A stretch of DNA of 64,000 nucleotides from Evansella cellulosilytica DSM 2522 (GTDB lineage: Bacteria; Bacillota; Bacilli; Bacillales; Salisediminibacteriaceae), in NCBI RefSeq assembly GCF_000177235.2, contig NC_014829.1, forward strand, positions 2,480,001-2,544,000, written 5' to 3'. The position numbers and the translations under genes were made by a program. The notes beneath the pieces were generated by a model. That model made no database searches. It was not told the DNA's origin and saw only the letters and a list, made by a program, of their open reading frames with translations. This document shows positions 10,840 to 14,098 of this stretch, piece by piece. Numbering within the stretch: position 1 is the first letter of the stretch; each line of letters starts with the position of its first letter.

Positions 10840-11793
10840 TTATTTAAACAAAGTACTTACTGAACGATTATTTTGAACTTTAATAATAGCTTCGCCTAAT
10901 AGAGGTGCGATAGAGAGCGTCGTTATTTTATCAATTCGTCGTTCATCTGGTAAATGGATGGAATTTGTTGTTACTAGTTCCTTTATCGGAGATTCCTCAA
11001 TCCAAGTCGATGCCGGTTCTGATAAAACTGGATGTGTACAGCATGCATATACTTCCTTTGCCCCTCTTTCGATAAGCGCATTTGAAGCAGTAGTTACCGT
11101 TCTCGCGGTATCAACCATATCATCAATAATAATCGCCGTTTTTCCTGAAACGTCTCCCATTATTTCCATTCCACCTGGAATATATGTTTTAGGGCGTCTA
11201 TTTCTATCTATAAATGCAATTGATGAATCTAGTGCATCTGCTAGCTTTCTTGCGCGCACTACACCGTTATTTTCAGGGGCAACCACCACTACATCATCAA
11301 GAGCCTTATCGATAAAATACTTCGATAAAAGTGGAAATGCTAGTAATTGGTCAACTGGCACATTAAAAAAGCCTTGTACTTGTGGTGAATGCAAATCAAC
11401 AGTAATGATTCTCGAAGCACCAGCTTTTTCTAATAAATTTGCTATTAATTTTGCAGTAACTGGTTCTCTTGAGCGAGCTTTACGGTCTTGTCTTGAATAA
11501 CCGAAGTAAGGAATGACACAGTTAATTGTCTTTGCAGAAGCCCTTTTAAGTGCATCAATCATAATCAGTAGCTCCATGATATAGTCATTTCCTGGTTGAG
11601 CCGTAGATTGAATTAAATATATATCACAGCCACGAATACTTTCTTCAATATTCATTTGAATTTCTCCGTCACTAAAACGCGTAATCGTGCTTTTCCCCAA
11701 ATCGATACCAATATGTTTAACAACTTCTTCGGCAAGTGGAATATTAGAATTTAACGAAAAAACTTTCATATTGGTATTATCATTTGCTAGCAT
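10840..11793 (-). CDS. Divergent ribose-phosphate pyrophosphokinase (PRPP synthetase) paralog
   Basis: A 317-residue class I PRPP synthetase-like protein; the ATG at 11793 is preferred over an upstream TTG because GGGGGAG lies 9 nt before it. Conserved blocks: [53 protein letters not shown]. The family makes PRPP from ribose 5-phosphate and ATP. Two functional loops differ from the usual enzyme: the SPDHGG loop reads APENNG (172-177) and the PRPP loop DTAGT reads DTART (228-232, Arg231 instead of Gly). The main prs gene of bacilli sits beside gcaD and spoVG; those neighbours are absent here, so this is a second copy, perhaps regulatory or altered in activity. Confidence 0.8.
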
Positions 11794-12131
11794 TGTACAC
11801 TTCTCCCCCAATTTTAAATGTTTTATTATTATGTATAACTTCTGTTATTGTGCTCTTACTATTTAAATAAATACCTTACCTTGGCGCAATAATAGTATAC
11901 CGATTAATAAAATGGAGTGCAAATTTCGACTCATTTTTTATATTTTTGTTTTCACTGCATAGAATTACAAAAATATGGTAGAAAAGTCCTGTTCTCCCTC
12001 GTTCTTTAGATGTATTTTTCATTTTTTGACACTTAACTACTTCTTGTGCAATTCAAAAGTATGATATATTATATAATAAGAATTATTATAAAAAAGAATA
12101 TTTCAATAACTCGGACGGGTTGGTGAATATC
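11794..12131. other. Intergenic region upstream of the AimR-like gene
   Basis: Divergent promoter region of 338 nt. No coding sequence for a missing N-terminal DNA-binding domain of the AimR-like protein was recognised in any frame. Contains the promoter described at 12044-12072. Confidence 0.5.
12044..12072 (+). promoter_or_regulatory. Sigma-A-like promoter of the aimR/aimP-like pair
   Basis: TTGTGC at 12044-12049, 17-nt spacer, TATTAT at 12067-12072, in an AT-rich stretch. Transcription would begin about 50 nt before the ATG at 12132. Position and spacing fit; strength is not known. Confidence 0.55.
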
Positions 12132-13163
12132 ATGGTACAAAAGGATACATCATTTAATAATCCTGATAATATATTTAGAACATCTGATAATTTGGATGAG
12201 TACATAAAAGGACTTGACCCTAATAGTTATTTAGCTAGAGTGGCTTTAGAATATACCGTCAGTAATAGTAAAATAGAATTGCATGAAGAACTAATAGATT
12301 GTCTACTACACTCCGGAAATCAAGAAAGTAAGGAATGGGCTGAAGTATACAAAATTGACAACTTAGTTTCTAAGCAAGAATTAAGTCTACCTGATTCAAT
12401 AACACAACTAACATATATACTATGTTCTTCTAAGGAAATGTCTGTTTTACAAAAAATATTTCAGTTATATAACTACTACGATCTAAAAGCATTTCAAATG
12501 ATAGAAATTGTCAGTGAACTAATAAATAAAGAATTAAAAGAAATTCCTGATGGATACATGAAGGACTCCCTTCAATCACGTTTGGATCTTGCGATGCAAA
12601 GTGTATATACACATTTAAATGAACTTGAGAAAGCTAGAATTTATGGTGAAAACCTCAAAGATATTGCTCTAACACCAGTAATGAAAGCAATAGCATATAA
12701 AAATCTAGGAATGACTTATCTTTATGAAGATTACGATAAACTCTGTACATATTTTGAAATGTCATTAAAAATATTTAAAGAAATGGATAACTCAGATCGA
12801 TTATATAATGTCCAATCTAAGTATAACTTTGCCCAAACTTTTTGGAGTTATCCAGATAAAACAGTGTGGCTAAGGAAAGAAACTATTGATGAACTGCAAA
12901 TTTATGCATATTCACTTATTAAGAGTGGTAATAAAGAAGAGGCTCATAAAATATTAGATAGTACCAAAAACTCTTTATCAAATGACTTTCAATTTGGTTA
13001 CCATTACTATTTTCTAGGATTACTTAATGATAATGAAAAGAATTACTATGAATCTGTTAAATACTTCAGCAAGTCTGGGGATAGATTTTTTAGACAGTTA
13101 CCGCTTATTGCTCTAAAAGAAAAAGGTGTGGACACTTCGCTGCTATCAGCTTTAAGTGTATAA
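12132..13163 (+). CDS. AimR-family (arbitrium receptor-like) TPR protein lacking the HTH domain
   Basis: A 343-residue all-helical TPR protein of the RRNPP type, closest in recognisable blocks to AimR: RVALEYTVSNS, ESKEWAEVYKI, IPDGYMKDSLQSRLDL, LNELEKARIYGENL, AIAYKNLGMTYLYEDYDK, FGYHYYFLGLL, SVKYFSKSGDRFFRQLPLI. AimR proteins are cytoplasmic phage receptors that bind a short imported peptide and control transcription through an N-terminal helix-turn-helix of about 65 residues. Here only about 30 residues precede the first AimR-like helix, so the DNA-binding domain is missing and the protein has a Rap-like layout. The ATG at 12132 is chosen because GGTTGGTGA lies just upstream; a TTG at 12120 is possible. 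The gene is followed after 30 nt by a repeat-bearing propeptide gene, the receptor-peptide order of such systems. No phage genes lie nearby. Confidence 0.8.
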   Translation: MVQKDTSFNNPDNIFRTSDNLDEYIKGLDPNSYLARVALEYTVSNSKIELHEELIDCLLHSGNQESKEWAEVYKIDNLVSKQELSLPDSITQLTYILCSSKEMSVLQKIFQLYNYYDLKAFQMIEIVSELINKELKEIPDGYMKDSLQSRLDLAMQSVYTHLNELEKARIYGENLKDIALTPVMKAIAYKNLGMTYLYEDYDKLCTYFEMSLKIFKEMDNSDRLYNVQSKYNFAQTFWSYPDKTVWLRKETIDELQIYAYSLIKSGNKEEAHKILDSTKNSLSNDFQFGYHYYFLGLLNDNEKNYYESVKYFSKSGDRFFRQLPLIALKEKGVDTSLLSALSV

Positions 13164-13193
13164 TAAATAATAAAATTAATAGGAGTGAGATCT

Positions 13194-13409
13194 TTGAAAA
13201 AGTTCATAAAAGGATTAATTATCGCAGTAACACTAGTTGCGGCGTCAACTAGCATCCCAACTTCCAGCGTTGCATATGATGTTGATTTTAGAGTTCGTTC
13301 GATTGAGGTCGTTGATGTTCAACCCCTTTACGATGTTGACTTTAGGGTCCGATCAGTTGAACAATTTGATGTACAACCGCTATATGATGTTGATTTTAGA
13401 GTTAGATAA
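13194..13409 (+). CDS. Secreted propeptide with three tandem copies of YDVDFRVR (AimP/Phr-like)
   Basis: A 71-residue pre-pro-peptide. The TTG at 13194 is the start because AGGAG (13181-13185) lies 8 nt upstream; the GTG at 13185 overlaps that site. Residues 1-27 are a signal peptide (MKK, hydrophobic core, SSVA at the end). The rest is repeats: YDVDFRVRSIEVVDVQPL (28-45), YDVDFRVRSVEQFDVQPL (46-63), and a final YDVDFRVR (64-71) ending at the stop. The units differ only in the spacer part, while the YDVDFRVR core is invariant. This is the architecture of a signal-peptide precursor that releases several identical copies, and it directly follows an AimR-like receptor gene. The exact mature peptide is not known. 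Confidence 0.85.
   Translation: MKKFIKGLIIAVTLVAASTSIPTSSVAYDVDFRVRSIEVVDVQPLYDVDFRVRSVEQFDVQPLYDVDFRVR
13275..13406 (+). repeat. Tandem 54-bp repeat within the propeptide gene
   Basis: Units at 13275-13328, 13329-13382 and a partial unit 13383-13406. The core codons for YDVDFRVR are kept at the protein level while the third bases differ between copies (for example GATTTTAGAGTTCG versus GACTTTAGGGTCCG), so selection on the peptide rather than a fresh duplication is indicated. Confidence 0.9.
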
Positions 13410-13421
13410 TTCGTTTATTTG

Positions 13422-13457
13422 AAAGCAAATGGATCAAAGACCCATTTGCTTTTTTTG
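13422..13457 (+). terminator. Terminator of the aimR/aimP-like pair
   Basis: AAAGCAAATGG / CCATTTGCTTT hairpin with a 9-nt loop followed by TTTT. It closes the two-gene transcript 13 nt after the propeptide stop codon. Confidence 0.9.
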
Positions 13458-13507: not shown

Positions 13508-14098
13508 CTAACTCTTCACCAACACTTCCTTTACCTCTAACATTTTATTTAGCTTTGTTACGTCTTCTTGTAGTTCGGACATTAATTGGACCAATTTTTG
13601 CTGTTCTTTTAGTTGGTGTGCCTCGAATTCAAAGTGGTGTTCTCTTAGTTTGTATAGTAAATCTGCATTTGTTTTGTCGTTTTGTAACTGAATACTATTG
13701 GCTTCCTCGAAGGATTCCTTCACTCCAGTAATTTCATGTGACAGCTTATTCAATTCTGATTCATGTTCAGCTTTTAACGTATCGATTCTTTCATACAATC
13801 CTTCAAGTAACAAATTAAGAATTTCATGTTCATTGATTTCATTTAATTTAGTCGTTTCTTGATCAGTTTTTAAAGTGTGGATTGTTTTCTGAATATCACT
13901 AATTTGCTTACCAATTTTCTCCTGTTGCTGCTTCTCCATTTTATGCAACTGATTTTTAAGCGCTTCTACCTCTTCCTTTTGTAAATACTTTAGGTTTTGT
14001 AATAACTCATATAGATCATTAGTTTTTGCGCTAATTTGAAATGTATTTTGTGTTAATGATACTATTTTAGACTCCATATCTGCATTTTTTTGCTCCAT
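13508..14098 (-). CDS. Coiled-coil protein, probably 5'-truncated by a frameshift
   Basis: A 196-residue hydrophilic protein almost wholly predicted coiled coil (rich in Glu, Lys, Gln, Leu heptads), no signal peptide and no known family recognised. The reading frame remains open upstream of the ATG at 14098 for about 33 codons (sequence beginning KAVPGLFQRQ), up to a run of nine A (14195-14203, plus strand). An ATG at 14213 in another frame, with a promoter at 14256-14285, would join this frame if the run had eight A. The real gene may thus be 13508-14213. Function unknown. Confidence 0.6.
   Translation of the reverse strand: MEQKNADMESKIVSLTQNTFQISAKTNDLYELLQNLKYLQKEEVEALKNQLHKMEKQQQEKIGKQISDIQKTIHTLKTDQETTKLNEINEHEILNLLLEGLYERIDTLKAEHESELNKLSHEITGVKESFEEANSIQLQNDKTNADLLYKLREHHFEFEAHQLKEQQKLVQLMSELQEDVTKLNKMLEVKEVLVKS

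Follow-up and report, generated by a model that had tools for sequence, protein, structure and literature searches.

The window, a stretch of 64,000 nucleotides from the 4.68 Mb, single-contig genome of Evansella cellulosilytica DSM 2522 (NC_014829.1, positions 2,480,001 to 2,544,000), carries a receptor gene followed by a small propeptide gene, both on the + strand. The receptor (12132 to 13163) is an AimR-like TPR protein of 343 aa that lacks the helix-turn-helix (HTH) domain, as determined from family matches, Foldseek and a scan of the upstream DNA. Its gene begins with an ATG at 12132, with GGTGA five nt 5' of it, and has its stop at 13163; an in-frame TTG at 12120 is a less likely start.

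The propeptide (13194 to 13409) is 71 aa long and is separated from the receptor by 30 nt, its best start being a TTG at 13194 with AGGAGTGA five nt upstream. It has a lysine-rich start and a hydrophobic stretch, and continues as YDVDFRVR-SIEVVDVQPL-YDVDFRVR-SVEQFDVQPL-YDVDFRVR. The signal and the ribosome site were called with a heuristic of our own, not SignalP, that yields some false hits. The three YDVDFRVR blocks are putative pheromone repeats (13275 to 13298, 13329 to 13352 and 13383 to 13406, all + strand) and are spaced by 54 nt; the first two are followed by a serine, and the third is C-terminal and stands directly before the stop, without the serine.

A hairpin with a run of T (13421 to 13453, + strand; -14.8 kcal/mol, z -5.0, none of 200 shuffles as stable) is the likely terminator of the two-gene unit. 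It is absent from the output of a consensus terminator scan, whose lone site is a weaker one inside the receptor gene. The gene after the hairpin, which encodes a 196-aa protein without a Pfam family (13508 to 14098, - strand), is convergent to the pair, and on the left lies a homologue of prs, for ribose-phosphate pyrophosphokinase (10840 to 11811, - strand); Pfam and the comparison of neighbours place both flanks outside the unit. The preliminary description of this locus had the propeptide directly after the receptor, with promoter and terminator in common. The adjacency stands and the hairpin is a likely terminator, whereas a common promoter can only be presumed from the 30-nt gap, and a promoter scan found no more sites than in shuffled sequences.

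Receptor family and the missing HTH domain

The receptor belongs to the AimR family, whose curated cut-offs it exceeds along the TPR domain: Pfam PF22871 (AimR) gives 335.3 bits (E 4e-100, cut-off 26.7), and NCBIfam NF038310 (AimR pheromone receptor) gives 191.9 bits (E 2e-56, cut-off 70) from model position 59 onward. It also matches PHROG 1728 (E 1e-56) and the sequences of the AimR crystals (E 3e-42), the latter beginning at chain residue 55. An AlphaFold2 model computed with five Evansella sequences has a pLDDT of 90.1 and a pTM of 0.85, with residues 1-8 under 50, and in a Foldseek comparison with the PDB ranks 1 to 16 are all AimR (5zvv with E 4e-15, TM 0.87 by query and 30% identity). 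The best Rap protein is found at rank 19 (E 2e-3, TM 0.61), below a proteasome subunit and MalT, and the three-helix-bundle N-domain of Rap is absent from the receptor, both by Pfam RapH_N and in the predicted model. The preliminary description had claimed an AimR-type TPR body along the whole length and had set a structure comparison with AimR and Rap as a check. This comparison bears the claim out, as the nearest fold is AimR itself, and an unrelated TPR family is ruled out by the matches to the crystal sequences together with the 16 top-ranked folds.

The HTH of SPbeta AimR comprises residues 1-59 and the regulatory domain residues 62-386, according to the part of PMC6458997 used here. Given that the NF038310 match starts at position 59 and the match to the crystal chains at 55, the gene corresponds to the regulatory domain and has no HTH. 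Its N-terminus lies approximately where the DNA-binding domain of AimR ends, and about 34 residues stand ahead of the aligned core.

A profile built from HTH-bearing AimRs was used to search three forward frames of the 700 nt located 5' of the receptor. The window scored -0.4 bits, and shuffled sequences scored up to 2.7; on the same upstream reading, 28 HTH-bearing loci, most of which are part of the profile, gave 14.9 to 84 bits, and 76 HTH-less ones 3.8 bits at most. The open frame of the window gives 68 residues ahead of the aligned core, and that of the other Evansella loci only 30-42, so that a longer start is impossible at the latter. The open-frame lengths in the relatives and the three-frame scan rule out both a wrong start and an HTH in another frame, and the HTH is absent, with none hidden upstream, in all nine members of the clade described below. 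The early observation that the N-terminal HTH is missing was therefore correct, and the homologues, which had been named as the place where a wrong start would become apparent, show no hidden domain.

Relatives and chromosomal setting

Relatives of the receptor were found by sequence search in four of the nine genomes of the genus Evansella, a patchy distribution. At E 0.001 the AimR domain is matched in 85 of the 397 genomes sampled from the order, 79 of them over the cut-off; the family has 6 such genomes out of 35, 5 of them over the cut-off. From the order and family matches 80 regions (L046-L125) were picked by hand, and 109 receptor frames were found in them; removal of four duplicates (named Evansella loci) and one partial frame, and addition of four phage or plasmid AimRs, gave 108 aligned rows. 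With an HTH called at a profile score of at least 40, the profile being made from part of the same rows, 76 receptors are HTH-less and 32 HTH-bearing.

The window receptor falls in a clade of nine, all HTH-less, with five members from Evansella (four genomes) and four from genus g71 (SH-aLRT 100 with 108 rows, 99 with 49 rows). It lies within a wider supported group (97 with 108 rows, 99 with 49 rows) whose other members are HTH-bearing AimRs, those of phi3T and SPbeta among them. A second HTH-less clade has 63 members (SH-aLRT 100), and the remaining four HTH-less rows are L049, L076, L115 and L116. A single origin of all HTH-less receptors was rejected at an AU p of 0.023, obtained from a quick tree of 49 of the 108 rows, chosen after the first tree. 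Both trees are quick, without bootstrap and unrooted, and an unrooted tree does not set the direction of change; the nested position of the window clade is most simply read as a loss of its HTH. Within the second clade, L106, L095 (at 7088) and L090 (at 8168) match the HTH profile weakly, from model position 15-18 onward (22, 22 and 14 bits), and may, from their sequence, carry a degenerate HTH.

Farther afield, a search of 398 genomes of the class with alignment A2 (E 1e-30) gave 7 matches, of which none but the window's own was assigned to the window clade, by score and frame length only. A scan of viral contigs with the same alignment produced 141 pattern matches and no relatives. By tblastn, 23 of 50,697 phage records and 5 of 72,556 plasmid records were matched, all from Bacillus, with at most 30% identity among the 25 of the 28 matches listed. 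One of the four isolated HTH-less rows, in L049 (5959-6921, genome G171), is a 320-aa AimR with an AimP-like peptide ending in GFGRGA, beside integrase, repressor and antirepressor genes; it appears to be prophage-borne and is possibly a further independent case.

The surroundings of the window pair are chromosomal. By Pfam, the 31 other window proteins tested include no phage gene, and the same holds for the 20 kb on the left-hand side, where 10 of the 16 ORFs reaching 150 aa were tested. In all four Evansella genomes that have the pair, the distance to a prs homologue, 65-81% identical to that of the window, is at most about 7 kb, and there are more neighbours in common; the position between prs and the 196-aa gene is found in the window only. 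The preliminary claim of a location outside any prophage thus agrees with the neighbours tested and with those common to the four genomes. Separately, the 396-aa product of 9222-10412 matches an integrase-type N-domain weakly (E 3e-4, under the cut-off), and its homologues occur near a prs homologue in two other Evansella genomes.

Of the five pair-less Evansella genomes, the surroundings of the right-flank gene were inspected in four: two have a prs homologue adjacent to it, at about 290 bp, and the other two have none within 1.5 kb. No clear target-site repeats surround the pair. The adjacency of the prs and 196-aa homologues in two genomes suggests that the pair is a discrete unit that can be absent. 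At the g71 loci, two other neighbours are common to all four.

The second HTH-less clade occupies fixed chromosomal sites of its own. Nineteen of the 80 loci (including L050, L053 and L054) have the order spoIID, spoIIQ (M23 peptidase), receptor, spoIIID, mbl and two flagellar hook-type genes, and a twentieth, L123, has the left half of this arrangement and is then cut. Eleven loci lie in a region with ywhD, pbpG, speE, speB, receptor(s), ywiB and argS, with not every gene found in each, and in seven the receptor adjoins a YdjM-type gene; all of these belong to the second clade. For SpoIID, M23, SpoIIID, Mbl, arginase, DUF1934 and YdjM, a single example of each was verified against Pfam; the names SpoIIQ, SpeE, PbpG, ArgS and YwhD and the flagellar assignment are presumptive.

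The putative pheromone and the receptor pocket

The same heuristic finds a signal-like small ORF within 350 nt of 36 of 76 HTH-less receptors, 13 of 32 HTH-bearing ones and 48 of 651 other genes. In the window clade, a propeptide stands beside eight of the nine receptors, against the 48 of 651 for control genes. The tandem receptors of E. vedderi are a special case, as no propeptide of its own was found for the upstream one. For AimRs outside mobile elements, a propeptide frequency of 11% is given in the part of PMC9765709 used here, with a sampling and a method that differ from those of the 36 of 76 count.

The first two repeats of the window propeptide differ by five nt within their eight codons, and all five differences are synonymous. 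As the synonymous share of random single changes in the repeat is 0.21, five out of five corresponds to a rough p of 4e-4, which is too small, since transitions account for four of the five changes and the limits of the block were set with the block already in view. The ten-codon linker between the repeats has three replaced residues. Likewise, the six-copy and two-copy propeptides of g71 vary only synonymously up to the serine of the core, and residues are replaced beyond it. The propeptides of the relatives carry ADASFRVCS in E. caseinilytica, ADASFRVRS in Evansella sp. AB-P1 and E. vedderi, and, in g71, PSTSPRIQS in six copies, PNGSPRIQS in two, PSGSPRIQS and PSTSPRIES. Taken together, the clade has a peptide core [SD][FP]R[VI][RQEC]S, which is kept while the remaining propeptide diverges; judged from these sequences, the core is conserved and apparently under constraint.

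The roles of individual residues were taken from the part of PMC6458997 that describes SPbeta AimR, and the residues were compared in the nine clade members and 11 HTH-bearing relatives. The pocket residue Asp360 is Asp in all nine members (Asp317 in the window) and in 6 of the 11 relatives. Other peptide anchors are lost in the clade: N202 became S/A, R228 became V/I/L/K and E300 became I/T/V/G, of which N202 and R228 are described in the same part of that paper as fully conserved for binding of the arbitrium peptide. In addition, all nine have His for N206 and Phe for N329, and eight have Asn for T236. With the anchors altered, the peptide may sit differently in the receptor. As for the residues given there as DNA-backbone contacts (K79, K145, R82 and N109), K79 and K145 are lysine in none of the nine, and in 6/11 and 9/11 of the HTH-bearing relatives, respectively; R82 (kept in 9/9) and N109 (in 7/9) are not clearly lost. 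This pattern is consistent with a receptor whose re-cut pocket still accommodates a peptide with an arginine, and which has less need of DNA contacts.

Mode of action and alternatives

The pair resembles AimR-AimP of phi3T and SPbeta in the TPR regulatory domain along the full length (30% identity to phi3T), in the receptor followed by a signal-bearing propeptide (gaps of 30 nt in phi3T, 13 in SPbeta and 30 in the window) and in the conserved pocket Asp for the peptide Arg. It differs in having no HTH and no phage genes found around it, in several changed pocket anchors, and in its peptide, which is of the FRVR type and repeated in one propeptide, whereas phage peptides are xxxRGA. Of the features that define arbitrium, the window has an adjacent secreted propeptide (its export predicted by the sequence heuristic), while phage or mobile element encoding is contradicted by the neighbours tested and by those common to four Evansella genomes, and the RGA-type peptide of PMC6458997, as far as the part used goes, is replaced by YDVDFRVR. 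Where arbitrium has an aimX under AimR control downstream, the window has the hairpin and then the convergent gene. With a TPR superhelix, by model and fold comparison, and a linked signal propeptide, the window protein counts among the RRNPPA receptors in the wide sense. The likeness to Rap-Phr of Bacillus consists of an HTH-less TPR receptor and a linked secreted peptide, both chromosomal; the Rap three-helix N-domain is missing, the fold match is weak, and the receptor subfamily is another one.

Chromosomal AimR homologues (PMC9765709) and RRNPP subfamily 21 (PMC12700828) are, in the parts of these papers used here, also AimR-type receptors outside prophages, and the RRNPP_detector clusters (PMC10075063, in part) are close prior work. 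In those parts, the published sequence tree places subfamily 21 of Alkalihalobacilli within AimR and HTH loss is named only for Rap and subfamily 17 (PMC12700828), and chromosomal AimRs are mostly without propeptides (PMC9765709). No description of an HTH-less AimR was found by literature searches or in the portions of main text covered, which include PMC9765709, PMC10075063, PMC12700828 and PMC11945551, and such a class may already be listed in the supplements.

The pair is probably a host-encoded, chromosomal quorum-sensing system, whose receptor acts on a protein partner and is Rap-like in logic without being a Rap. The earlier label of Rap-like is kept in this limited sense, given the absent Rap N-domain and the much weaker fold match. 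We infer export, maturation, import, peptide binding and a protein partner as follows. The propeptide would leave the cell via Sec, be trimmed to a short peptide comprising roughly (D/S)FRVR(S) and be taken up again; the peptide would then enter the TPR channel of the receptor, with the first arginine of the core on Asp317 (Asp360 of SPbeta AimR), and close the superhelix as AimP closes AimR. Because the DNA-binding domain is gone, closure cannot shift HTH domains on an operator, and would most likely alter how the receptor binds a partner protein, by analogy with Rap. No gene for such a partner is linked to the pair. Sporulation or another stationary-phase output is a first guess, made only because the sister HTH-less clade is often found between sporulation genes.

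Action on DNA after all, with the receptor as a subunit whose partner is an HTH-bearing AimR or some other HTH protein, seems unlikely. Each of the four g71 genomes (L133-L136) does have a longer AimR in addition to a single HTH-less receptor that comes with a propeptide; both longer receptors tested carry an HTH, and a propeptide was seen beside none of the four longer ones (two checked by eye). However, Asp360 is Gln in the two g71 HTH-bearing receptors compared, which therefore probably read another peptide, and the other three Evansella genomes have no HTH-bearing AimR over the cut-off. The window genome has a single PF22871 match, the receptor itself, and no RapH_N match, so that an obligate HTH-bearing AimR partner is unlikely there.

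It is quite unlikely that the receptor of this same pair works exactly as a Rap, on Spo0F or ComA. Rap proteins are HTH-less TPR receptors too, and a RapH_N match is found in only one of the nine genomes of the genus, so the Rap niche may be open in the other eight, but the three-helix bundle is lacking, with roughly 34 residues ahead of the core and residues 1-8 of the model under a pLDDT of 50, and the best Rap fold is the distant one at rank 19.

Decay of a dead SPbeta-like prophage, leaving an AimR-AimP pair that lost its HTH, is very unlikely. The nesting of the clade among HTH-bearing AimRs, including those of phi3T and SPbeta, the patchy presence and the flanks that adjoin in two pair-less genomes would suit such a remnant; against it, the ORFs of nine receptors from two genera are intact and have their N-terminal limit at a similar place, the peptide repeats vary only synonymously, pocket residues are invariant across the clade, and the neighbours tested include no phage gene. 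Least probable is a decoy or eavesdropper that soaks up the arbitrium peptide of infecting phages, as proposed in the part of PMC9765709 used here for chromosomal AimRs without propeptides and compatible with the HTH-less, GFGRGA-associated AimR of L049, since the window receptor has its own, different peptide and N202 and R228 are changed.

The quorum-sensing reading has wider implications. Arbitrium is regarded as a phage transcription switch, and here a chromosomal receptor is without the DNA-binding half and has its own constrained peptide, which makes the role of an AimR core unable to bind DNA testable. Besides Rap, it offers a second case of HTH-less peptide receptors, in which two or more origins can be compared. 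It also suggests that a different role is possible for many of the bacterial genes that match the 'lysis-lysogeny pheromone receptor' model. We tentatively propose that HTH-less AimR-like receptors might make up a large and so far overlooked group of quorum-sensing proteins of Bacillales hosts. This group would have originated at least two times, act on proteins as a parallel to Rap, and in one major branch be built into the sporulation block spoIIQ-receptor-spoIIID; phage arbitrium would then be an offshoot of this broad host signalling family that binds DNA, or else the family's source.

Two further arrangements were observed among the relatives. Tandem arrays of HTH-bearing AimRs occur in L070 (genome G039, seven receptors) and L071 (genome G150, five full-length), where a signal-bearing propeptide stands beside one L070 receptor only and none in L071. 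Some receptors of the second HTH-less clade have adjacent peptides with DPxxGG or DPGDPGMG motifs.
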